Shown piece after piece: positions 3,001 through 42,354 of a stretch of DNA of 64,000 nucleotides. The notes below the pieces were generated by a model that was given only the letters and a program-made list of their open reading frames with translations, was not told the origin of the DNA and ran no database searches. The stretch is from Marchantia polymorpha subsp. ruderalis (lineage: Eukaryota > Streptophyta > Marchantiopsida > Marchantiales > Marchantiaceae): positions 25,184,501 through 25,248,500 of the forward strand of contig AP031351.1 of assembly GCA_037833965.1 (NCBI GenBank), written 5' to 3'. Made by a program: the position numbers and the translations under genes. Numbering within the stretch: position 1 is the stretch's first letter; every line of letters starts with the position of its first letter.

Positions 3001-4083
3001 TACAGATTGTGCATTATCGGTTACTCTTCCATTACAAATCAGCACTAATTCAAAATCACAATAAGCACAAAGATTTCTCTATACAAAATTCCATCACATT
3101 GAACTCATTTCTGGAAAATAGTGAATAAGTCACAAGTCTTTTGACTAATCAAGTCTGATCTCAATCTAGATCCGAGATCATTATATGAAGAAGATAATAT
3201 GTCTTACAGATTAGAGAGATTTCAGAAGTATTTGTTTTCTTGATTGCAAATGTGTGTAAAGACAATCTTAGGTATTTTAGATTTCAAAACGGTTTACATC
3301 ATTTAGGAGATAATCTTGACTAGAGTTGTTGACGTATCCGATGTGTATGTCATAGTTTGCTGACAATAGTCTTCACTATCTCGATAGCATGTCATCTGAA
3401 GGTAATTGAGGTCATATGACGTAGATTCCTTAAATTGTAAATCTTACGTCAAAATGCTGATCAATCAATCTTAGGTGTATTTCTCTTGTATACGTTTATA
3501 ATCTCCATTTATGTCAATCATATGAAGTACTCTGAAATCTCTAATCAACCACAAAACACATGGTGTGAAGTACATGGAACCAAAGAGCAGCAAAACCATT
3601 TATCGTTTTACACTATTTCATTGAGCGTACATGACATTGATATGGTAATCAAAATCTGGAAGTGAGTATAGATTTACTTAAGGTCTAGCTGATTAACGGC
3701 TGTACATTTACGAGGTGAACACTACAATGATTGCCTGCAAGTAATTAACATACATCGTACATGCTTCATAGCTCTCGAAAGTGCCTTTCCAGACTTGAAA
3801 CCTTTCATTTATACCACAAAATTTTGAGACTTGGACGATATAAATGTTGTGCTATTTCCCTCGAATGTCAGTTGTGAGATAAAAACTCAATAGCTGCCTG
3901 GGCTTATCTAACTTTTTCTTCACGATCAAGAAGTCACCAGATTGGGTAAAAACTGGTGATGACCTCGAATGTACATGTAGACCTTGTTGATCACACACTT
4001 GCACGCAGTTGCAGATCAGATATTCATTCGTCTACGCGTGCTACTACTATTCACAAGCAAGATTTGGAACTATCTGCGCGATC
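1..4083. other. AT-rich gene-free stretch
   Basis: This stretch is strongly AT-rich up to about 3.3 kb. Its few open frames are short and made of low-complexity residues, and I recognise no protein, tRNA or structured RNA in either strand. The only clear internal structure is the foldback repeat family near 1.4-1.64 kb, listed separately. From about 3.3 kb the base composition becomes more balanced towards the 3' end of the minus-strand gene that stops at 4084, so part of it may be that gene's 3' untranslated region. Confidence 0.6.
1379..1645. repeat. three tandem imperfect foldback repeats
   Basis: Roughly 90-100 bp units recur here. Each has an AAATGAATTTTTGTTTTAAT-like arm and the opposite-strand form (AGATTTAAACAAGAATTCAT) 60-70 bp later, so each copy can fold on itself. 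Within the first copy an exact 11-bp hairpin is visible: CTACTTTGTTT at 1423-1433 and AAACAAAGTAG at 1443-1453, with a 9-base loop. The middle and last copies have lost part of this symmetry. This looks like a small non-coding foldback or MITE-like element that was tandemly copied. There is no coding capacity. Confidence 0.6.
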
Positions 4084-25869: not shown

Positions 25870-27985
25870 CAAAAAATCCACTGATACTGGTGTTCCTTCT
25901 TGATCATTAATGACATAATGATTAAACTCTCCCTCCCCTTACCTTTCGTGAGCGGAGATTTCACCTTATCATGACAAAGAGCATAATAAGTCTCTCCCTT
26001 TTTCAATGATCTAGATCTCATTGAAAAAAAAATCCATAATGACAAGAACCTTACAAGCTACTAAATCTCATAGATTGGAATTCTACATTGATCAAAGCAC
26101 ATAATCTTGTACTCCTAGATCCAGATAACGTTATTGAGGTTAACTTCCATTAAGTAGTTACCTCACGTTCTAGCTACTTATAGATATGTTAGTTGCCGGT
26201 GTTTAATATTTATATCTTGGATCTATCATACATGACGTTCATTACAATCTCAAGATGCTATTTCCTCGTGGACATAGCAATTGAGGATGAACCATGTTAT
26301 ACGCTTGTCTCTCTTGTGTTGATTGTTAGCCTGAATGCTTTGTCACTAATGATTCTCAGGTTTTACACTTACAAATGATATTAGAGCGATTGATTTGGTG
26401 CTTCTGACTCAAAGAACGTTTGGTTTGGTGCTTAAGAGTGAATGAATGAGAAGAGTTCATAGTTGTATCAAGTTCAACCAGTAAAGTTTTTTCAAAAAAC
26501 TTGTTGGAAAGTTTTCAATAGAGCTTGAGTTCATTTTTTGAAGTTTGATAGTTCTTCAAAAGTTTGTGGTCCAAGATTTGACGGTTTGTGATGATGTAAC
26601 AGTGAGACAATTTGTATGAGTTAGGATCACTAGACTAACATTGAAGTTTCTTGATTTCTCAATACAATTTTTGATTGTTTTTTCTCTTCAAGTTTTATAT
26701 CCTATTTTTTTAAAAATCCTTATGCAGCTATGTAGTCGATACTACTACTTGTTGATATAGTTTTTTACTTTGGTATAAGTGGTATCAAAAGTACTTTCGT
26801 CTCATTCAATCGACAATACTTGAAGTTTTTTGCTTCTATTTTTGACAAACTTCTTGTGCAGATTTATAGTCAAGATAGATATTTTACTTTGCTATGAGTG
26901 ATATCATAGAAGTGTCTTGTTGAAGTATCGAGCTCCTGATATTCTAATAATGAGTCACCAGAAAGTGATCTCTCGTAGGGAGAGCTACTTTGAATGTTGA
27001 GGAGCAAATTTTTAGAATTTGAGTTCGAAGGCTATGATGGGAGATTCAGTGTTTCGTTACAAGTTTAATTTGACAAGAAAACGCAAACGTGCAAAAGAAG
27101 AATTCTGATGAATTGCTTTAAAAAAATTTAGGATTGAAAATGCGTCCTTAGAGTATATACTAAACGTGTTGCTCTCTGAATATTGTGTTACGAAGAACTT
27201 TTATGAAGTCTATATATTTCAAACTTGATACTTTGATCGAGCAGTCGGAAAACTGATCATTTGATCAGTCTCTGAATTCGGGTTTGTCTACGGGAGGAAC
27301 ACATCTCAACTATTCAATGTTCTTTTATGTTGAGTCATAGGTCAGGACTTGCTCAAGCAGTGTACGATAATAGTCCATGAATCTTGCCCCTACGTGCAAA
27401 AGTGAGTGGAGTTGCACGTCTTCAGAATGTCATCTTTACATATTACTTGTGCACTACATCAACAGTCGTTGCTTTTGTCATTGAAGAGAAGAGATTGGCA
27501 CTCGTTGCAGCAGTGTTGGTGGTTAGAGGAGGTCTTGCGTACTCATAATTGGGTACCGGAAGACGTAGTAAACATTATGTGTCCGAACTACTCGCTAACG
27601 GTGCTATCACATGAATATTGTCTCCGTTTTTTGGAAAATTAATGTCCAAAGAACACAAGTTTGAAGGTGACTACAATCAGGTCCATAGCCGTTTGAGTAT
27701 TCTTTCAGAGAGCATTGTGTTTTATGGATGATAGTATAGGAAGGCTTGATTATATCAATGCGCTTTATGAATCTTGTGAAGCATTTGGAGATTGTTGTAC
27801 ACAATTAGTGGTGATTTTTTATGATAAGATTTTATGCCTAAGTCTTTGGAGGCCATATTTGAAGTTGTTCTTATCATTGGCCATTTTTTTTTGCGATAAC
27901 TTGAAGTCTAATGCGACTACTTTAGGTTATGCGAGTAACATGTGCTATCACACTACGTCATCATCTCACTATTTCAGTCCATGGA
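25870..27985. other. intergenic with possible old LTR-element remains
   Basis: No coding sequence is recognised. At 26780-26791 TGGTATCAAAAG resembles the copia primer-binding site TGGTATCAGAGC. The block 26127-26185 is diverged-similar to 37838-37892 (shared TTAACTTC..TTAA, GT.ACCTCA.GTT and TTATAG elements in the same order). These may be traces of an older LTR element flanking the copia insertion, but the evidence is thin. Confidence 0.3.
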
Positions 27986-28282
27986 TGTAAGATAACGAGG
28001 TCTAATTAACACAATGAGAACAGATGCTTTACTCAAAATGCGAAATACAATATCTAGTGAGTGTGGGGCGCAGCTCACTTCCTCGTTTGCTAATTTGAGT
28101 GTCTATTGTTGATAACCTCAGCTTAAATGCTGCCAATCACATGTTGAGCTATCCGTTCACATAGCCGCCAGTCTCACCCACCAGCTTCTCATGAAACGCT
28201 CAGCCGTCGGGTTGTGGCCACGTCAGCAGGGTGGAGCTAAGTCACTCAAAGTGACATCTGGACAGTCTTCAAACTGCCAACA
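27986..28282 (-). repeat. 3' LTR of copia element
   Basis: Starts TGTAAGATAACGAGG and ends AACTGCCAACA (plus strand), the TG...CA form of an LTR, and matches 36947-37244 along its whole length with scattered substitutions. In element orientation it is the 3' LTR. The short purine-rich run just right of it (reverse complement GAGGAGA) is a candidate polypurine tract. Confidence 0.85.
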
Positions 28283-28532
28283 TCTCCTCGATACACAGGT
28301 ATCTGAGTGAAAAACTTGCTGGCTATGGCAACACGTGAAGAACATTCGGTAGGCAACGCTTTGGCTTTACTTGATAATGTGTATGTGTGGCTGATCTTTA
28401 TTTTCAATTTGTGGATGTTCTGCAGCCTTCTACACTGATTAGCTAGGTCCGCGAAGGAGTTCTTGAAGCGGTGTTTCTTGGCAGCTTCAAGTGAGAATCA
28501 CCCTCAAAAGTCAACATGAAATCCTGGAAACT

Positions 28533-30994: not shown

Positions 30995-31825
30995 CTAGTT
31001 GATATTAGCAAGTGGCTGTGAAGTTGAGGCAGCATTGGGAGTTATGCATGGAAAGGTAAGTTTATCAAACTTAACATCTTTTGAAACAAAGATTTTGTGT
31101 GATGGCCAATGATAGTTTCTGAAACCTCTAGAGACAGCATTGTATCCAACAAAAATACATTCGCTTGATTGGGGTGTCCATTTCTTGTGCTTTGGAGAGT
31201 TGTTTAGTACAAAACTCTTGCACCCAAACACACGAAGATGGTCCACAGTTGGTACCTTGTCTGTCAGGTGCTTGAAGGGAGTGACTACATTGTTGGCCTT
31301 GGTTGAAGTTCTATTTGTCACATAATTTGCAGAAGTCACGGCTTCAATTCGAAGGTGGGCAGTAATTCCATTTGCATACGCCATACACCTGGCCTTGTCA
31401 AGCAAGGTTCAGTTTTTTCGTTCCGCCATGTCGTTTTGATGCGGTGTGTAGGTATAAATGAGCTGTCCGAGGATTCCAGATTCATCGTAGAATCTTATGA
31501 AGTTGTGTAAAATGTACTCTCCTCCATTCTCCGATCGTATAGCCTTGATGCGGTGAGAGATTTGCAACTCAATTATAGCTTTGATTTGATTAAATTTTAC
31601 TAGTGTTTTAGATTTACTCTTGAGAAAATAAAGCCATGAACGTCAACTAAAGTCATTGATGATTGTATGTATATACTTGGAGCCTGATAAGGATTTTGAA
31701 TTGAGTGGTTTGCATATATCAATATGAAGGAGCTCTAGAGGTTGCTGAGCACGTGTGGCAACTTTGCGAACTAAGTCAGCAGGTCCTGGAGGTAGTGTTT
31801 TAGGCTTGGGAGAGTGTGATTGCTT
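30995..31825 (-). pseudogene. copia integrase core, broken
   Basis: Right to left: LPPGPADLVRKVATRAQQPL, ELLHIDICKPLNSKSLSGS, KYIHTIINDFS then a stop, KAIRSENGGEYILHNFIRFY, LIYTYTPHQNDMAERKN then a stop. A 136-codon open frame (31405-30995) follows with NRTSTKANNVVTPFKHLTDK, LRVFGCKSFVLNN and SECIFVGYNAVSRGFR. Elements of the DDE core (HID, END/ENGGE, HQN..AERKN) are recognisable. The two stops replace codons that are normally Trp/Arg-type, so the protein is not made. The extreme N-terminus with its zinc-binding residues is cut off by the nested insertion. Confidence 0.85.
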
Positions 31826-31831
31826 CTTGTG

Positions 31832-34800
31832 GTGCCTAGTTTATTTGTTTTTCTTCAAAAATCAACAAAACTTAAACATATTTGTGTAGAAGGTAGACAT
31901 ATGAGTTAGAAGGAGTAGATTTAGAGAAGTTATGATAGAATTAGTTAGAGTTCGTCTTTGGCCGAAGATCTTCAGATCTTTGGCGCAGCCTTTTTTGAAC
32001 AATGCAAGATTTGTGTCTTCGGAGAAGACATCAAAATCAATTCGAATTACGCAACGGGCCGGGCAACTTCACACGCGTCGAGAATTTTACTGGATGCGGG
32101 AGGAGGCAATGTTAAGGCATCAAGGGAAAAGCAAAGGCAGAAGCGAGTGCGCCAACATTGCGATATCGAACGAGAGCAAATGTGGACGAAAAAGGAGAGA
32201 TCGATCGACATCGATTCCACAACGGGGCGAATTGGAGACATGGCGCCGGTCAAAGAAGAGTGACAAGGTGCGGAAATCGGTTCCCTTGAAGGTACCCTAC
32301 GAGGAATTGCGACCCTTCAGGCGCGAGCTCTGCGAATTGCGTCTTGATTTTCTCTTATGGAATTGGAATTGCATCTCGTTGAGCATCTGCAAAGAAATTA
32401 TGGATAAGAACAAGACCGAGGGCGAGGATCTCCGAGGCAATCCAATGTTGTGGACGATTGAGCATTGGGCGAACGTGATGGGGCCGTGCGTAGGCAGCGA
32501 CGAGGACCTCTTGTTTGTAAATAGTAGCGTGAAATTCACGCGCATAGAAGAATTCTCTTACGACCCACTCTTCAATTCTGGGAGATCGGGGACGAATGGA
32601 TGGAAAACCGTCGACTACACGGATCCAAAGAGCCGGGCAATAGCATTGGGCATTATGCACATCCTAAGACCGGCACGAACGACTTATGTCACGGCCTGGC
32701 AAGTGGGATTCTTCAAACGCGTCTTGAAGGAACAGCGGGTGCATTGGGCAAGAATCTTTTATGATCTTGTCTGGGTGAATGCGAGTTCCCGATGGACAAG
32801 GCCGTTTGTTAATCATTTGACTTCCTTCCTTGTGAATTTTTATCGAGGCATGGTACTGCTTACAAGGGAGTAGGAGAAGCAAATTCCGAGCGAGCGGGAA
32901 ATCTTAGCAGCTGAGGGAAGGGACCGAAGAAGAGGATAACAGTCAACCTCAAATTCCACCACAAACGACATCACGAGGACCCGTTCAGGTGGACGTTCTG
33001 CCGAATCGAGAGAAGCCAGGACGGCGATTGGCGAAGACATGGAAGGTGGTGACTGATGACGAGGAGAATTTCACGCTAGGGGTAAAAAGAGCGGAAACTG
33101 AGATAGAAGGAATTAGGCCGTCAAGAAATCGCTCGAGACCGAAGAGGAAGGCGAGTCGAGGGTTAGTAGTAACCAAAGTTTCGGACAGCAGTGTGGAAAA
33201 GACAGTTGCCCCAATTGTAGACACACCCGAAGTAGCAGCTGCCGAGTCGACACAGCCTGTGGTGATCCAAGGACCTTCGGCGGTACTAGTCAAAGTTCCA
33301 GAAGACGTGACAGTGGAACCTTCGAAGGAAGGAACATAGATGGTCAGTCCAAACTCTCTTTCTTTGGAGCGGACGCGGTCTGTGGGGAGTAAGGATGTAC
33401 TTCAGCCGAAGATCGGAGGAGAAGTAATGGCGGAGGTTATGTTGAGAGAAGCAATCTTGGAACCGATTGTGGCAGAGGTTGTTGGGACTGTGGGGAATCA
33501 GGTAGAAGAACCAGGGCCGCCACCACAAGAGGATGAAGTGAGGATGAAGACTTCGGGCGAAGAGGTGAAGACCTTGGAGATTACCTTCCCCAACTTCTTA
33601 CAAGATAGTGTGGTTCCATTACTGAAGTATTTGGACAGAAAGAGAGAGAAGTATGTTGTGTCAAAGGAGGCAGGGTTCTATGTACAGTTAGTGAGGAACA
33701 AAATTAAGATCAAGAGAGCAGTAGCAGTGAAGAGGGAGTGGGATTCCGCAACTGAGTTGGCACGGAGCGAGCTGCAATCTTGTTAGCCGAGTGCGCAGCA
33801 GCGAAGGCGGCAGTGAAGGAGCGAGAAAACCAACTCCGGGAACATGAGATCGAGTGCAAAGTGCTGCAGTTGAATTTGGCGAAGGAATCCGAACGGTGTG
33901 CAGAGTTAGAGAAAACTTGTGGCGGACTTCGTATCTCTAACGAGAATGGGCAGAAGATGACAGTGGATTTGCTCGCGAGATTGGAGAAATCTAGAGAAGC
34001 GTATGATGCGGCAGTCCAACAATCGGAGAGGCTGATCAAAACTGCCAAGAGGCGGGAGAAGAAGTATGCCGAAGAGCTTGCGGAAATTGAAGCCCGAAGA
34101 GCTAAAGAAGTTCGTATCGCCGAAGAACTTTGGAGAAAAATTGCAGAGGCGAAGACGTCGGAAGAGGATTTTCGTAGTAAGATTGCGGAGATTGCGAGTA
34201 AGTGTGACATGGAATTCCGACGCGCGGAGGAGCTATCAACGAGACAGAGGGAATCCAGAAGCACAAAGAGGAGTTGACGAATTGGGCCAAGAAATTGCCA
34301 AATTGCGAATGGACCAAGTCTTTGGAGGTCGAATGTAGATTAAGGGTTGAATCGGAATGTCGACGGTTGCAGGAGCAATTAGTTAAGGCTGACATGAGAT
34401 CGCAAGAGTCGCGAAGTAGAATGGAAAAGGCAAAGAATGCCTACCGTCATCTGCGTGACGAAAAAACCGATGACTTGAGATTGCGTGTAGAGAAGTGCAT
34501 GCGTGGATTCGAGATGTGGGGATTGCAAACAGTAAAGTGGCTAAGGTTAGATTTGCTGGAGCGACGATTGATGAGCACTAAGACCAGCGGATCCGCACGA
34601 CAGAAGTAGATTGTAGAAATAATTAAGACATTTTCCGAGGGATTCGATGAGGCACGCCAGAATGTAGAGTTAGAGATTGTAAACGTTTTGCGTAGATTAG
34701 GAGCAGAGAATAGTTGAGACGACGCCGTAACCGCTACATCGGACGGCACGGCCCTTGAGAATGATTCGCCTCAGGCGGTTGAGATCCTAGAGTTGCCATT

Positions 34801-35344
34801 GTGAATAAAGAGATCCAAGGCTCTTTTCTTGAGGGGCTTTTCTATCATTCGGATTGCCTTGGTTGTGAACCTGTATCCACTATGTGTATGTGTGCTAGTG
34901 TGTGATCAAGACATCGAGCACAATGCGCTCATGTTTGTCGAAGTTACCGCATCATGAGTTGTGAGTGTCCAACTTGAATGTTCTGAGTAGCCGCGTGTTC
35001 CTTGGGATTTAAGCAAATTTGAGTCTGGGTATTCGGGTCAGTGAGTCGGGATGTATGCAATGCTGGGAAGTTTTTCCCCTAAAATATGAGTGTGGGGTCG
35101 TAGGTAATTCCCACAAGCGTTGATTAGAAAAGTTTCAAGTTGTGAGTGTGATTATGCGCTACTCTGTAGGTCTTCGGTCGTAACTAGGTAGTGTCTTCTA
35201 GGAGTGGCATTGGCCTAAGAAGTAAAACTCCTTAACAGAATGCTAATACGTGACAAATCGTTACTTTTGTGGATGTTTTTGTCCTCGTGGTATCGAATCT
35301 ATACCATTATGCTTCATTTTGATATTTGTCTGTCATTACACTTC
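31832..35344 (+). mobile_element. 3.5-kb insertion nested in the copia element
   Basis: Copia coding stops at the C-terminal edge of GAG-pre-integrase (about 35340) and resumes at the start of integrase (about 31825), so everything between is foreign to it. CTTGTG occurs at both edges (31826-31831 and 35345-35350) and may be a 6-bp target duplication, though six bases could match by chance. I see no terminal inverted repeats, LTRs or transposase. Its content is the plus-strand coiled-coil unit. Whether it is a transposon, a captured gene or a retrocopy is open. Confidence 0.5.
31932..34804 (+). pseudogene. decayed coiled-coil protein of a multicopy liverwort family
   Basis: One long protein is read across successive plus-strand frames: 31932-32873 (intact, 313 codons), 32989-33786 (one stop at 33337), 33780-34277, then 34274-34804 (stops at 34607 and 34715). 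Frame changes fall near 32.9, 33.77 and 34.25 kb. The first part is basic, then a globular block with LWTIEHWANVMGPCVGSDED, ARTTYVTAWQVGFFKRVL and FLVNFYRGMVLLTRE. A low-complexity acidic/proline middle follows. The last 300 residues are a long coiled coil (LAKESERCAELEKTCGGLR, LARLEKSREAYDAAVQQSE) ending EIVNVLRRLGAE. I recall near-identical blocks in many uncharacterised Marchantia proteins, some labelled as putative plant transposon proteins; function unknown. Codons and composition differ clearly from the AT-rich copia sequence around it. Confidence 0.65.
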
Positions 35345-36840
35345 CTTGTGCAGCATGATGAGCAAAATGGAGCTGACCTTAAAACAGACGGTAAGTCATG
35401 GACCTCTACTTCTTCCTTCATAAAAGAGAGTACCTTGTGGCTGGCGTGGACAAACCTATAGTGCCACAGGAGTGTAGCATGTTCCTTTGAGTTTACTTTA
35501 ATGCTATTGATTGATTGATTTGGAGGTCAAAATTTATAGAGATTTTTCTTCTAATCTCGTTTCCCTTTAGTGATGACTTGTTATGCTGCTGGCAAAGGAA
35601 AGTCTCGGAAGATCCAACAGTGCGTTGAATCAAACAGAATCTTGGGGCGCTTTTCTTCGTCCGCAATCAACTCGATTGACAGCAAGTTCTTTTTTATACC
35701 AAGTACGTACAGAACATTGTCAATTTGTATTCCTATAGAGGGTGTGGAAACTTTCACAGAATCCTTTCCTGCAACATTCAGTGGATGATCTCTTGTAGTG
35801 CTAATCTTGCATCTACAGTTCAAATCCAAGTCACTTATGATGCTCTTTTGTACAGTAACATGTTTGGACGCTCTAGTATCGATAAATCATTCATTGCTAC
35901 TTCTCTCTGTTAGGTTTAGTTTGAACATGTTGACGGTTAGATTAATCTCACTTTCCACAAATTCTTCTTCCTCGCTGGTACTATCAAAGTTATCGACAAT
36001 GTTGATGAAGGTTGCCTTCTGCAGTCGTTTAGCCTTGCGTCCCTTCAGCTCAATTGCCAAAGTAGGACAGTTTCTCATCCAGTGTTCCTTAGAAGCATAG
36101 TAGTGGCATTCGCTTGCCGTATTTTTCTTGAGCTTGTGTCGAGCATCGCTGATTGCTCAGCTTCACATGCGTCCTCCAAAGCTCTTCTTACTATTCGTCA
36201 ACAGCACTTCTTGATCGCTACGCTTGCCACCCTTAATCTCTCTTCGTATGTCATATTGTAACAAGATGACGGTGAGCTTAGTAACTGTGAGCAGTGTGGG
36301 TTGGTACATGTCAGAATTCACCAGGGCTTTTTAACTCTCCGGTAAGGCCATCAAAATTTGTTCAACAATCTCAGATTCGTTGATGACCTCTCCAATACAC
36401 ACAATAACGTGTTCTTTAACTTGCTTCAGGAATTTTGGAATGACAGCTCCTTCATTCATCCTTAGATTTAAAAGCTTTCGCCGGAGTAAAAGCTTTCTGG
36501 AGTTTGTTCCGTTGGCGTATAAGTCTTTCAAAACCTTCCAACATTTGTCAGGCTTTGTAATACAAGCAATGTAGGGAATTACATTATCTAATACATATAG
36601 TGCTATTATGTTAGAGCTCTATTCTTTAGTACTTGCAAAGCGTTTATATTAGCTTGAGCGGTACGTGCCACTGTCCCAGCTGGAGGGTTAACTACTCGCC
36701 AAATATCATCTCTATTGAGTATGTTACATAGCTTAAAACTCCAAACTGCGTAGTTTGAAATTCTCTCTAACTTGATGGCTCTTCAATGAGTGCATCTCTT
36801 CAATGAATGCATTGCTAACAAGTGCTACTTGTGATCCGTT
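35340..36840 (-). pseudogene. copia gag, protease and GAG-pre-integrase, broken
   Basis: Right to left: gag start (ISNYAVWSFKLCNILNRDDI at about 36.75 kb), gag core (LLRRKLLNLRMNEGAVIPKF and ESEIVEQILMALPES in the open frame 36531-36331). A zinc knuckle CHYYASKEHWMRNC (about 36.07-36.11 kb) has its second Cys replaced by Tyr. The protease motif IDTRASKHVT (about 35.87 kb) has DTGA changed to DTRA. Then VLYVLGIKKNLLSIEL (in 35829-35581), and the GAG-pre-integrase signature LLWHYRFVHASHKVLSFM (about 35.43-35.48 kb). The damaged protease and knuckle, plus stops, make this copy dead. Confidence 0.8.
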
Positions 36841-36946: not shown

Positions 36947-37244
36947 ATGTAAGATAACGAGGTTTCATTGACACAATGAAAACAGATGCTTTACTCAAAA
37001 TGCGAAATACAATATATAGTGAGTGTGGGGCGCAGCCCACTTCCTTGTTTGCTAATTTGAGTGTCTATTGTTGATAACCTCAGCTTAAATGTTGCCAATC
37101 AGATGCTGAGCTTTTTGCCCACACAGCCGCCAGTCTCACCCACCAGCTTCTCGTGAAACGCTCAATTGCCGGGTCGTGGCCATGTCAGCATGGTGGAGCT
37201 TAGTCACTCAAAGTGACACATGGACAGTCTCCAAACTGCCAACA
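36947..37244 (-). repeat. 5' LTR of copia element
   Basis: This is the second copy of the roughly 297-bp TG...CA repeat at 27986-28282. It lies next to the primer-binding site, so it is the 5' LTR. The two LTRs differ at scattered sites (roughly one in ten by eye), consistent with an old insertion and with the many stops in pol. Confidence 0.87.
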
Positions 37245-38935
37245 TTGAATATTTTGGCAAGAAGTACTCGCATGCTAGCTCAACTTAATGGCTACGGAAA
37301 TTGAATACATGAGTTCATGCAAGTGTCAAAAGAACTACGGAGATCTAGTGATAATCTGACAATTCAAAATATAGAGAATGGTAGTTGCTTTGTTGAAGCA
37401 AAACATATCAAGTTTGAGGACGTGAAGATAGTCACACCTTCAATCAACTTTGGTCAAAATTTTGACTTTGAGAATTGAACCATGTTTCAACTTACCTATT
37501 GCACATCCGAGACAAGCCTCTACAAGCAAAGGAGAAAATCTATCAAAACATCAACAGATTTTTGATTGAAGTCTCACGTAGACAAGAGTAACTTTGTATT
37601 AGGTTTCTTTCTAGTACTTTTCACGAAGCAATTATATGGGTCACGAGTTTTCTGTTTACTCTATGGTTTTAAGTTAATTCTTTATGTTATTACTCTATTT
37701 TGTTATGACTAGAGCTTAGTTCTAGTTAATTCTTGTATAAAGAGGAGTCTTGTATTAGGCATTTGTTTTGAATTTCCCGATAAGTAATAATATAGGTTAC
37801 AAAAATTATTGTTTCTTTAACACAATTTAAAGTAAAGATTGTTAAGATTAACTTCAGTTAATGAGTAACCTCATGTTTCAACTATTTATAGTTTATAGTA
37901 TCAACAAATTTCTAACTCATGAAATTTGTTGAGGAAATTAATATAAATTAAATAGTACACAATAGTTTATCATCTTTAAATGTTCATGCTTTAGGTGAAG
38001 ATTTTGGCTCATGTGTAAAGGAGCACACTATTGCTGGTATTAATTTAATTGTATGGAATTACTCAGACTCCATATAACCCACCATATGTTACAATTCGAA
38101 TTTTCGTAACCCTATAGTTTGCTGTGGGGAAGAGAATGCCCCTAGTGGACCAAAGTACTCACAAGAATACTTCGGCCATGAGGCTGAAATGCTCCTCGTG
38201 ATAACAAGTCCCACAATTGCGACCATGTCATGTTGTTCAATCCGTTAGAAAATCTCCAGAGCCGACTGCAGCAGAGTCATTGGAAATGTCAATGTATGCT
38301 ACTATTTATTCCAATGGGCCATGCACGCCAGAACGACAGTCGATACTTTTCTGCGTGAGAATCTTGTGAGTTCTCACACTTAATCTATCCTAAATTGTTT
38401 AGTCATGCGATACATGCCTGTAAGTTACACCTTGTTTACAGGCCTTTATTAGCGACGTTCTCGACTTTGAGCCTTTCTTTGGTCATGATCCATAAGCGGC
38501 AAAATCATGCATGTACATGAAGTGGGTTGCGACTATTGAGGATAAGTGATTGGAAAGAGATCAAACATAAGTGGGAAAAACATAAGTGGGTTTCAAACTA
38601 TTGGGGGTAACCAAGGGCTACCCCCAATAGTTCAATTGATTCATCGTATAATACAATATCAATACGGTGATCTTTGTGCATTGTTCTTTTGCCAATCTGC
38701 TCTAAATCTAAACACATAAGAATTCGTGAGACTCGAAACGGTCAAGAGTTGCTTCGAAAGTGATATGTGTTTCAAACAAGCCCAGCCCCGTTGCAATTTC
38801 CACGTCAATTCGCCGAGAATCGCTGATGAACTTGGCGAGAAATCTCATTCAATTTCACAGGTTCCACTTCGTTTCTCCTTCGCTCCTCTGCATTTTCTGC
38901 TTGGCCTCTCCCCTTCCAATCCGCCCCTTTCAGAC
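37245..38935. other. intergenic flank of the copia element
   Basis: No gene is recognised. The part to about 37.9 kb is AT-rich and may be older LTR-type sequence (see the block at 37838-37892 shared with 26127-26185). A TATAAAGAGGAGTC-like promoter string is at about 37.74 kb. A perfect hairpin at 38596-38632 is listed separately. Confidence 0.4.
38596..38632. repeat. perfect hairpin, 14-bp arms
   Basis: AACTATTGGGGGTA and its exact reverse complement TACCCCCAATAGTT are separated by nine bases. The arms are more GC-rich than the surroundings. No gene abuts it, so a terminator role is not supported. It could be the end of a foldback element. Confidence 0.75.
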
Positions 38936-39019: not shown

Positions 39020-41196
39020 ATTAAAAGTGTTATTTATTAAAAAATGCCGCCTTTGCAACAATGAAAATTGGGCTGATTCCACAATTAAACTTGGTTCTAT
39101 AGTGACTCTTTGGTTGCAATTGAGCTTTATAGTGTAAATTTTTAAAAGTTCGCAAGCACTGCGTAAAGTTTACAAAGTGCGTTGTTGACAACGGAAGAAT
39201 GTTATTATCCCAATCAAGCAAGCATTAGATCGCATTGTTGTCAGTATATTGTAAGTGAGTGGAAAGAGATCCCTGTATTTTTTAGCCAATTGTGGACTTA
39301 AATCGAAGGCATGATCACCTGAAGTATGTAATTTTCGGAAGAAAATAATATTACATACACCGCGAAGGTTTTTTAAAACTGGAATGCAAGAATATTCTGG
39401 TCATGAAACCAAGTTTCTCTCCCGTATTAGTATTGAAGACAAGTGATGTTAATCATCTTCAGCTGAGGTTTTGAAGAGTAATACAATTCACCTTTCTTGG
39501 ATTTTGGAAGTTGGCACTATTTTAGACCAGTATCCTCATCCTTAGGATTAGTAATTTCGAACTCATCTCTTCTCAAAGGACTAGTTCTTTGTGCTGTGAA
39601 TATACCCACGGTGAATAATCATGTGGCATGTTCATGGACTCTTCTAAATTTTGTTAGCTTTCGATGGCTTTAGGTGTCCCTTGAACATATAACATGAGGG
39701 CAGAACTTAAGCTAAGCACAATGGAGAAACAACACTCCATGATTTTCTCGTGAAATAAACTCAATATTTTATGGTTTCAAGACTGTAACAACAATTTTTC
39801 AATACAAATGCCAAAATTACCATTTTTATGAAATTTTGGGTGCCACAATTAACGAAAAGGTGACAAAAGCCACTTTTAATGAGGTCTGGGCTACGCACAC
39901 ATTCCCATCTCGTATGCTCTTCTGTTCTGCATCAAAGTCTTCCTTTTGCTCATCGCATCTCGTTCCACTCTCGGTACTGGCGTTCGCCTTTACCGCCGCA
40001 GTTCGCCGGCCACGCACGCCCGCTCGCCGCAATCCTCCCCACGCGACGCGACGATGTCAAACCTCAAAAGCACAACATTCGCCGCGAGGAAATAAAAGCT
40101 TCGACGGGTCATCGGAATCACGAGCAGAGGATTAGGTCTGCCGTCCGCTGCTCTGCTCTGACTTGTGTCCGCTCCGGCTCCTCAAACCATTGGATGCAAA
40201 TGACTCTGAGGCGAGCAGTGCAGCGCTCGGAGGCCAATCACGGCGCTGCGATTAGATGCGGACGTTACAACTCGGAACGCCGCGGGGGCGGGCGGGCGGG
40301 TGAGGCCCTTCTGCCACGGTCGGCGAAAGGGAGGGCTCTCAGCTTTCCCGGGAAATAAATTCTGTCTGTCTGTCCGTCCATACGTGGCCACATTCGTACG
40401 AATTGGGATACGGCCAACCGCACCGTATTCGTATGGCGGAGGATCTTACGTGGACTGGGAGGACGACGACAGCCGACGCCAGCCGACGCCGGGATCCTGG
40501 ACCTCCGACCGGCCGTCACGGGAGCCCTCGTGCTGGCCCGTCGGCGATGTCCAGAAACTCGCAGCAGCAGCAGCAGCACCTGACTCCCGGTTATGAGCAC
40601 CTGCCAGGAGGCAGGAGGAAGGAGGAAGAAGGGTTGGCGTTCTTGAAGCGGACCTCGGACCTCGGACCCTGCGCCGGTCTAGAACTTTCTGTTTGGCTCA
40701 CACGGCCCCCGGACCGAAGGATGGACGCCCGAGCTGCTTGGCTCGCCCTCGTAACGTGTTGCGGGGCAGAGACATTTCCCAATGCAGGGGAAGGGATGGC
40801 GGTCACGGTTGCAGGGCACTGGCACTTTGCTTGGATCGAGAAATAGGTTGTTGTAGAGGCGTTCGAGTCGAATTCCTCGTGAGAAGAAGAGTGAAAATGC
40901 GGTGAGGTGAGATGATCTGATCTGAATAGCAGGGCGGAGCGATCTTCTTTGGAGAGGAATGACGAGGAGAGGTGATCGACATCCAGGAGAATATGAATCT
41001 GAAAGGGGTGCGCGGAAACGTGGATCATTATGGGACGGTGTGCTTGTAGGCGTGCGGGCGTCGGCGATGGATGGATTTGCGGTGGGTTTCGGACCCGGGG
41101 CTTAGTGCAAGTGAGGAGTAGGATAGACAGGACAGACCAGGCGGTAGGAAGAAGCTCGACGGAAGAGTGGAGAGGGAGGAATGAGGAGGTGGTCCG
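39020..41196. promoter_or_regulatory. intergenic, then CpG-rich island before the 385-aa frame
   Basis: 39.0-39.85 kb is AT-rich and empty. From 39.9 to 41.2 kb the sequence is GC- and CpG-rich with open frames on both strands, as at the other gene starts here. It probably holds the promoter and leader of the plus-strand frame that starts at 41197. A (GCA)6 run lies at 40561-40578. No reading frame inside the island resembles a known protein. Confidence 0.4.
40561..40578. repeat. (GCA)6 microsatellite
   Basis: Six uninterrupted GCA triplets in the CpG-rich island before the 385-residue frame. Confidence 0.9.
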
Positions 41197-42354
41197 ATGA
41201 GTCTCACAACAGGGAACTTGGATGCCTGTGCTGCCCAGATGGCGAGTTGGCAGCCGTTTGCAGGTGGCCCGGTAGAGATGGTCGAAGGGAATGTGGGCAG
41301 AGCAGGACCAGCGAGAGAGGAATCTTTTCACCCGGACGTTGTAGGGCATCCAAGCATCCCGAGGTGTAATTCTGGTACTTCGGCGATTGGTCAAGGCGCG
41401 TTTGATCCTTCACGCCTTGGAGTCCAACTCAGTGGGCGCAGCGTTAGCTGTCCTAGTCTGAATCTGAAGAGTGGAGAGGTTGCTTGTGCGGATAATTTAG
41501 CTCTGTTTCCCTGCAGGGATGTTGCTGTGTCGGCTTCCAGCGGGCAACATTTTGGGTCGGCAGTTTGTGTTCCATCACGAGGCATAACTTGGGGGGATAC
41601 CAGCTCGGCGTCACTGGCGAAATGCTACTCACTGCCAGCAGTTCAGGAGTCACGGTGGGATGTGTTTTCTGCCAATTGCATGTGCACCATCTCCTCCTCC
41701 AGGTTAAGCATGATGCATGAAGGAAGGAAAAGGGTGCGCAGGTGGAGCAAACGGAAGAAACAAATGTCACACGCCTTTCTCAGAAGCTTATGGAGGTGGA
41801 AGGAAGGCGTTCATGCTCGGAAGAGAAGAAAACGAGCAGTTGTGGGATCCTGTTCAGGTTCAGGAGCGAGGAGTTACACCTCCGACCCTCCCACGGTTGG
41901 AGCCGCTTCCTCGGGCAATCCGAAGTCTGTAATAGGAACAGACTCTAGTGGGGAACTTTTTTTCAGTGTGGTTGGCAACCAAATAAGTTGGGGCGCCGAT
42001 ATCATCGCATCCGCAGCGTCATCAGAATCAGGTTTCTGCACCGGGAATACCGAGGTGAGAGATATGGGTTCAGATCACCCGCTTCCTTGCTGGTTCAGTA
42101 ATCACAGTGATGGTGCCCTCAGCACGGAATCGGGGTATAACAGCGAACCTGGGTATAGCGCCGACAGCGAACTCAACTGCACGGATGACGGATTGGTCGA
42201 TGATGATGACGAGGAGGAGAAGCATCCTATGCATTTGGTAGTCTGGAAGGATACGGCACCTAGAAAGCCTTTCCACCGTGTGGATAAGGGTCAAGTGAGG
42301 GAAGGTATGCTCATGGCACCTTTAATTGTGCGTTTATCATTCGATGTATTTTGA
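41197..42354 (+). CDS. uncharacterised protein with basic and acidic stretches
   Basis: The open frame encodes 385 aa from ATG 41197. I do not recognise a domain. Residues 1-170 are Ser/Gly/Ala-rich. Residues 176-213 are strongly basic (EGRKRVRRWSKRKKQ and HARKRRKRA), a likely nuclear localisation signal. A Ser/Gly-rich stretch follows, then GALSTESGYNSEPGYSADSE and a run of Asp/Glu (336-341) before HLVVW. The STE.GY..EPGY..D.E plus acidic run plus hydrophobic-Trp arrangement is faintly like the STEPGYRGDAEFG...DEEE..LLFWG region of some small plant proteins of unknown role (ASG8 relatives), but this is a weak match from memory. GAAG|GTATGC at 42304/42305 is a possible splice donor, so the last 16 residues may not be the true C-terminus. 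The location after a CpG-rich island supports a real gene. Confidence 0.5.
   Translation: MSLTTGNLDACAAQMASWQPFAGGPVEMVEGNVGRAGPAREESFHPDVVGHPSIPRCNSGTSAIGQGAFDPSRLGVQLSGRSVSCPSLNLKSGEVACADNLALFPCRDVAVSASSGQHFGSAVCVPSRGITWGDTSSASLAKCYSLPAVQESRWDVFSANCMCTISSSRLSMMHEGRKRVRRWSKRKKQMSHAFLRSLWRWKEGVHARKRRKRAVVGSCSGSGARSYTSDPPTVGAASSGNPKSVIGTDSSGELFFSVVGNQISWGADIIASAASSESGFCTGNTEVRDMGSDHPLPCWFSNHSDGALSTESGYNSEPGYSADSELNCTDDGLVDDDDEEEKHPMHLVVWKDTAPRKPFHRVDKGQVREGMLMAPLIVRLSFDVF

Follow-up and report, generated by a model that had tools for sequence, protein, structure and literature searches.

A segment of about 3.5 kb interrupts a copia retrotransposon in Marchantia polymorpha subsp. ruderalis and encodes, on the opposite strand, one long, decayed coiled-coil protein. 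The question raised by this locus is whether the segment is a mobile element in its own right, a dispersed gene, or part of an element of a known type. We analysed the 64,000-nucleotide stretch that contains it (positions 25,184,501 to 25,248,500 of contig AP031351.1, assembly GCA_037833965.1; this whole stretch is the window, and its coordinates are used throughout) and the 241-Mb genome of nine contigs, in which the window lies on contig C2. We conclude, with high confidence, that the segment is a solo long terminal repeat (LTR) of a Ty3/gypsy element, and that this LTR carries a gene maintained by selection.

An insertion with defined edges in a copia element

The host of the insertion is a Ty1/copia element on the minus strand, whose LTRs (27985..28283 and 36947..37245, both minus strand) are identical at 271 of 299 positions. 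In the Pfam analysis of this element, Retrotran_gag_2, Pol_BBD, gag_pre-integrs and SH3_retrovirus exceeded their cut-offs, and RVT_2 gave a match below its cut-off (E 0.00055). The gag_pre-integrs domain lies on one side of the insertion, SH3_retrovirus and the weak RVT_2 match on the other, and the 65-amino acid copia piece adjoining the cut matched no Pfam family. When the segment and one 5-mer were removed and the flanks joined in silico, the copia protein was unbroken at the junction. A preliminary description of the locus had recognized a foreign plus-strand unit of about 3.5 kb inside a copia element, which is corroborated by the copia LTRs, the domains on either side and the restored frame. 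It had also described the unit as GC-rich; a contrast in GC content does exist, and it is modest, the unit having 47.5% and the copia flanks 43.8% and 41.7%.

The edges had been placed at 31832 and 35344. A genome search with 31832-35344 as the query revealed at least 70 matches (39 of 1105 candidate places were scored), and among the best 20 rows the match started at query base 1-3 in 14 and ended at 3508-3513 in 17. Comparison of 27 edge rows gave the true termini, TGTG(G/A)TGCCTAG... and ...TGTCATTACA, and the unit in the window therefore occupies 31828..35340 of the plus strand (3513 bp, TGTG...TACA). It is flanked by a target site duplication (TSD) of 5 bp, and not of 6 bp as anticipated, with CTTCT on the left (31823..31827) and CTTCC, alike in 4 of 5 letters, on the right (35341..35345); the empty site restores the copia frame.

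Duplications were also detected around other copies. Flanking 5-mers were scored in 16 of the 27 edge rows, after exclusion of copies in which an end was lacking or broken; they were exact in 7 of 16, and 10 of 16 agreed at four letters or more out of five, whereas the means for shuffled flanks were 0.44 and 0.81. The scripted score of locus L013 was only 1/5 owing to a 2-base misplacement (by eye, GGTTC/GGTTC), and L026 scored 0 with a 3' neighbour that is internal sequence and not host DNA. The 3' end of the LTR occurs 520 times genome-wide (at most 3 mismatches of 38; control 0). The genome search, the edge rows and these 3' ends confirm a multicopy family with common edges, and the presence of TSDs at copies with both edges in common identifies it as mobile.

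Full-length elements with the unit as their LTRs

The 3' flanks were read for 32 of 40 listed matches, the other eight being in loci already covered. In two of the 32 (L052 and L061) the LTR 3' end is followed by TAGATAAATTTT(T/C)CTTTTGGCGCCGCTGCCGGGGACAG, a sequence of the primer binding site (PBS) type, and L057 and L026 retain only its first part. The PBS-type sequence TTGGCGCCGCTGCCGGGGA was found after the LTR at 22 junctions genome-wide (at most 3 mismatches of 42; control 0). None of the matches to a first PBS pattern (6, with 2 in the control) were counted; of three that were read, one was a self-insertion and two were seemingly unrelated. The PBS is putatively of the tRNA-Asp type. 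At the L061 and L064 junctions the LTR end and the PBS are 17-18 bp apart. The search for imperfect PBSs outlined in the available part of the REXdb report (PMC6317226) used a spacing of 0-5 bp, so a PBS placed like this one may escape searches of that kind.

Three internal regions were read. L064 contains gag, zinc knuckles and reverse transcriptase (RT) and is internally deleted, while L065 and L066 comprise about 6.1 kb between LTRs. Across these regions the Pfam families Retrotrans_gag, zf-CCHC, Asp_protease_2, RVT_1, RT_RNaseH, Integrase_H2C2 and rve were identified; two of ten L065/L066 pieces matched no family. Both gag and pol are thus present, and the integrase follows RT-RNase H, as in Ty3/gypsy elements. 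The family has the layout gag-protease-RT-RNase H-integrase (gag-PR-RT-RH-INT), with 5-bp TSDs and TG...CA ends. Both full-length elements are decayed and measure about 13 kb, and reading frames are broken in the full-length copies read. In each of them GGGGAGAGGAGTA, which resembles a polypurine tract (PPT), precedes the TGTG of the 3' LTR. The two LTRs are 88.9% identical over 3571 columns in the element L077-L066-L076, and 92.8% identical over 2321 columns in L075-L065-L074, whose 3' LTR is broken beyond that point.

The paired LTRs, PBS, PPT and gag-pol sequences identify the unit as an LTR, that of a Ty3/gypsy retrotransposon some 13 kb long; the copy in the window, one LTR with its own TSD (4/5) and without internal sequence, is a solo LTR. 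In the genome as a whole, solo LTRs appear to dominate over full-length elements, the ratio being rough, since the LTR-end and LTR-PBS patterns decay differently.

As for the lineage, REXdb (PMC6317226), in the part available, lists Asp among non-chromovirus primers and mentions very long LTRs, of up to about 5 kb. The PBS type and the long LTRs fit the Tat/Athila (OTA) lineage, which is only a lead. In the scanned pieces of L065, with their broken frames, the only RNase H found was the native RT_RNaseH, with no extra RNase H.

A gene within the LTR shows signs of selection

The LTR opens with a leader (31828..32239, plus strand), presumably the promoter and 5' untranslated region, in which the first 60 bp have a conservation of 0.91-0.93. 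The gene (32240..34804, plus strand) extends from ATG to TGA over about 850 codons and is broken by frameshifts and stops in the window copy; an ATG at window position 32240 is present in 19 of 20 aligned rows. The TGA (34802-34804) overlaps an AATAAA polyadenylation signal (34804..34809, plus strand), which occurs in 21 of 21 aligned copies and is the only AATAAA conserved across copies. The remainder of the LTR (34810..35340, plus strand) is non-coding and conserved (0.84-0.96 per 30-bp step), and presumably represents the unique 5' region (U5) or the repeat region plus U5 (R-U5). TATA-like words after the open reading frame (ORF) occur at any one place in only 2 of 21 copies.

Within the gene, a conserved globular block (32295..32870, plus strand) and a coiled-coil region (33756..34609, plus strand; in two frames in the window copy according to the ORF list) were distinguished. 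Differences at codon positions 1/2/3 amount to 0.255/0.239/0.213 in the leader and 0.214/0.175/0.360 in the block. The sequence up to 32239, previously read as a basic head of the protein, is a non-coding leader, as it carries no codon-position signal and precedes the conserved ATG.

The ratio of non-synonymous to synonymous substitution rates (dN/dS), calculated for pairs of at least 120 aligned codons that are not independent of one another, had a median of 0.18 for leader-plus-block pieces (109/109 pairs below 1), a set that takes in some leader codons, and of 0.24 for the coiled coil (69/69 pairs below 1). The same measure gave 0.01-0.27 for gag and pol pieces in 18 computable pairs (two were not computable), and one off-frame overlap among these comparisons gave 1.59.

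A comparison of paired LTRs with LTRs of different elements, in which open frames were not selected for, agrees with the dN/dS values. Between elements, ORF differences at positions 1/2/3 were 0.221/0.170/0.381 (L077/L075), 0.219/0.185/0.380 (L076/L075) and 0.193/0.155/0.369 (L072/L075), and the leader showed no third-position excess. For LTRs paired within a single element the values were 0.135/0.090/0.110 and 0.075/0.051/0.065, without third-position excess. Selection therefore acted while the element replicated and ended after insertion, a pattern expected of an element gene and not of a host gene.

The encoded protein and its relatives

The globular block is some 190 residues long; 31 columns are invariant in an alignment of nine sequences, among them a relative from a diverged sister LTR family (family B). 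The block is followed by a linker of mixed acidic and basic character, with clusters that we read as resembling nuclear localization signals (NLS). In 284 residues of copy L070 the coiled coil has a heptad-like period of 3.52 residues (power 2.77; shuffled 99th percentile 2.18), which bears out the earlier proposal of a coiled coil; the proposal that the repeated unit carries a conserved coiled-coil gene likewise holds. The maximum 19-residue hydropathy was 0.93 and 1.09 in two copies, and a membrane helix is not predicted.

Searches among known families gave several weak matches, which we took as chance: Cu_amine_oxidN3 in 9 of 18 copies (best E 0.015), Integrin_alpha (E 0.016) and similar single-copy Pfam matches, and a single PDB profile match to collagen adhesin (E 0.001, with 0 stretches passing alone). 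With E values of up to 1 admitted, the 18 copies contained no match to Transposase_28 (PF04195), Transposase_32 (PF20167) or the plant mobile domain (PF10536). Genome-wide, the three Transposase_28 matches (lowest E 0.888) all fell short of the cut-off and lay away from the listed copy sites, and Transposase_32 had no match at E up to 10, the control genomes also being without a match. Profile comparison gave no sign that the LTR ORF is a duplicate of the element's gag (probability 0.1, E 0.42), and a structure predicted with the window sequence as sole input was unusable (mean pLDDT 36.5).

Family B was recognized at locus L011; its ORF there is related to that of the window family (41% identity to P0001), and its LTR has the same kind of 3' end. 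Since both features are shared, the gene probably sat in the LTR already before the two families split. The intervals L011:1196-2776 and L011:6281-8048 would represent one family B LTR interrupted by a window-family copy. Around that copy, L011:1-1195 and 1196-2776 preserve nested remnants of other diverged LTR-ORF families, at least two in number: B and a third recognized by eye.

Nesting and distribution of the family

Insertion into the family itself was observed repeatedly: 7 of the 32 sampled 3' flanks match the LTR ORF or gag-pol (E up to 1e-4), L039 being the seventh, with a marginal match. Self-family insertion was seen at L029, L042, L043, L056, L057, L058, L059 and C1:5081974-5088996, and further nested copies occur besides the 7 of 32. 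Its frequency may reflect targeting either to the family itself or to heterochromatin. Contig C1 (5.59 Mb), which may be a sex chromosome, holds 35 of 127 scored ORF matches, against 2.9 expected from its length, and 13 of the 22 LTR-PBS junctions.

Two further features of the window lie apart from the LTR. Positions 40001-42354 are GC-rich (0.55-0.60 within 40001-42000) and contain a 385-amino acid ORF at 41197-42354, and positions 1369-1668 consist of AT-rich DNA with closely spaced short direct repeats.

Discussion

The identity of the LTR, the TSD and the empty site show that an approximately 13-kb Ty3/gypsy retrotransposon had entered a copia element older than itself, with a 5-bp duplication, and recombination between its LTRs presumably left the solo LTR seen today. 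Reverse transcription places the LTR at both ends, so that a full-length element bears two copies of the gene, and one is kept in each solo LTR. Transcription promoted in the leader would produce a short protein-coding mRNA ended at the conserved AATAAA, and read-through of this signal in the 5' LTR would yield genomic RNA with the PBS and gag-pol. We favour this scheme of expression because the one AATAAA that is conserved marks the end of the ORF; it is a reasonable possibility that falls somewhat short of probable. More tentatively, the lineage may have moved an accessory gene that it needed into the LTR, where one promoter would serve both the short mRNA, polyadenylated at its own stop codon, and the read-through genomic RNA.

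Just as likely as a promoter in the leader is an arrangement in which the gene lies wholly in the unique 3' region (U3), as does most of the sag gene of mouse mammary tumour virus (MMTV; available text of PMC4667437), and genomic RNA starts near the LTR 3' end. The 3' LTR would then be the source of the protein, encoded as the final ORF of a genomic or spliced RNA, in the position of env. Such a layout parallels MMTV sag, keeps R short, and agrees with the high conservation of the 3' part of the LTR and with a leader devoid of TATA-like words. A transcription start downstream of the sole conserved AATAAA would, however, require another poly(A) site, and the scarcity of TATA-like words at any one place after the ORF speaks against it.

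No known domain exceeded the cut-offs, and any biochemical role for the LTR ORF product is therefore a guess. The basic NLS-like stretches, the coiled coil and the lack of a predicted membrane helix lead us to suggest, as a doubtful possibility, that it assembles with itself and serves retrotransposition as an accessory factor, acting in the nucleus or in the nucleoprotein particle.

Several observations weigh against our interpretation of the unit as an LTR with a selected gene. By script, 9 of 16 TSDs were imperfect, and the outer flanks of the L077/L076 element differ (ATGAC and GGTCG), so this element has decayed or recombined at one edge. The dN/dS pairs represent stop-free segments only, which possibly lowers the values. 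The closest between-element pair, L072/L077, shows a weaker third-position excess (0.125/0.092/0.165), and one paired-LTR leader, with 5/12/19 differences at positions 1/2/3 (137-138 sites each), leans to position 3. In every fetched locus the ORF is interrupted, with at most 750 codons in one open stretch, and no Pfam family exceeded its cut-off in the window ORFs or the 18 copies. The leader-promoter scheme, in particular, is weakened by the lack of any TATA-like word in the leader in 20 rows.

Some of these points would suit a chance or relic frame without protein function, such as a captured host fragment: no domain was recognized, and every fetched copy is broken. We consider this very improbable. 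Such a frame would not be expected to vary most at third codon positions between elements (0.381, with 0.221 and 0.170 at positions 1 and 2, for L077/L075) but not between paired LTRs, or to have dN/dS medians of 0.18-0.24, similar to those of gag, and a related ORF is preserved in the sister family B.

The preliminary description had favoured either a non-autonomous element of an undescribed type or a gene family spread by another mechanism. An independent DNA or retro-element of a new type could account for the sharp edges and for the fact that the unit occurs alone in most sampled copies, including insertions into its own family. This idea, now barely credible, does not survive the existence of full-length copies with RT and integrase sequences, in which the unit forms both LTRs of gag-pol elements with a PBS and a PPT-like sequence at the expected junctions. 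Moreover, LTRs of different elements are 73.6-75.6% identical (two comparisons), against 88.9-92.8% within pairs, which would not be expected of chance nests. Dispersal of a host gene family through retrotransposition or segmental duplication, in favour of which the multicopy, coding nature of the unit and its slightly elevated GC content might be cited, can be practically dismissed, since copies of such a family would hardly start and end at LTR termini with TSDs, accompany a PBS and PPT, or decay neutrally between paired LTRs. A DNA transposon with TGT...ACA ends was considered and rejected, and a scan for bacterial-type promoters was set aside as inapplicable to a plant.

That a plant gypsy element should have a coiled-coil gene maintained by selection within its LTR, a finding which we uphold, is unexpected. 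LTRs are ordinarily non-coding, MMTV sag being the exception named in the part of PMC4667437 available, and our literature searches found no plant case of an LTR-borne gene. MMTV sag is the nearest parallel: according to the same portion of that report, it is also an accessory gene in an LTR, its copies are mostly solo LTRs (490 of 527 contigs there), as they appear to be in the present family, and purifying selection likewise preceded insertion. The likeness is one of analogy only; the present case concerns a plant Ty3/gypsy element and a coiled-coil protein of about 850 codons.

Among plant LTR retrotransposons, additional or extra ORFs (aORF/eORF; PMC7264820, PMC6317226 and PMC11963269, each in part) are similarly sense ORFs kept within a family and without a clear homologue. 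The aORFs described in the accessible sections of PMC7264820 and PMC11963269 lie in the internal region, and those in REXdb (PMC6317226) are given merely as up- or downstream of the polyprotein, whereas the present gene occupies both LTRs and is retained by solo LTRs. The env-like ORFs of Athila and Bagy2 (PMC7264820, in part) are also extra sense ORFs beside gag-pol; the window family differs from them in the position of its ORF in the LTR and in that a transmembrane segment, expected of env-like proteins, is not predicted. Large retrotransposon derivatives (LARDs) share very long LTRs with this family and are resembled by some of its internally deleted derivatives, such as L064, yet the window family has gag-pol members and a coding LTR.

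With a conserved gene in a plant LTR, solo LTRs could act as trans sources of a protein or as triggers of silencing. Such a gene provides a testable plant case of a retrotransposon accessory protein, and gives repeat annotators reason not to take every LTR as non-coding; multicopy gene models for "unknown coiled-coil" proteins may be accounted for by an LTR-borne gene. If one promoter does serve both the short mRNA and the genomic RNA, solo LTRs, which are usually deemed dead, would amount to hundreds of independent copies, potentially expressed, of a retrotransposon gene that acts in trans.
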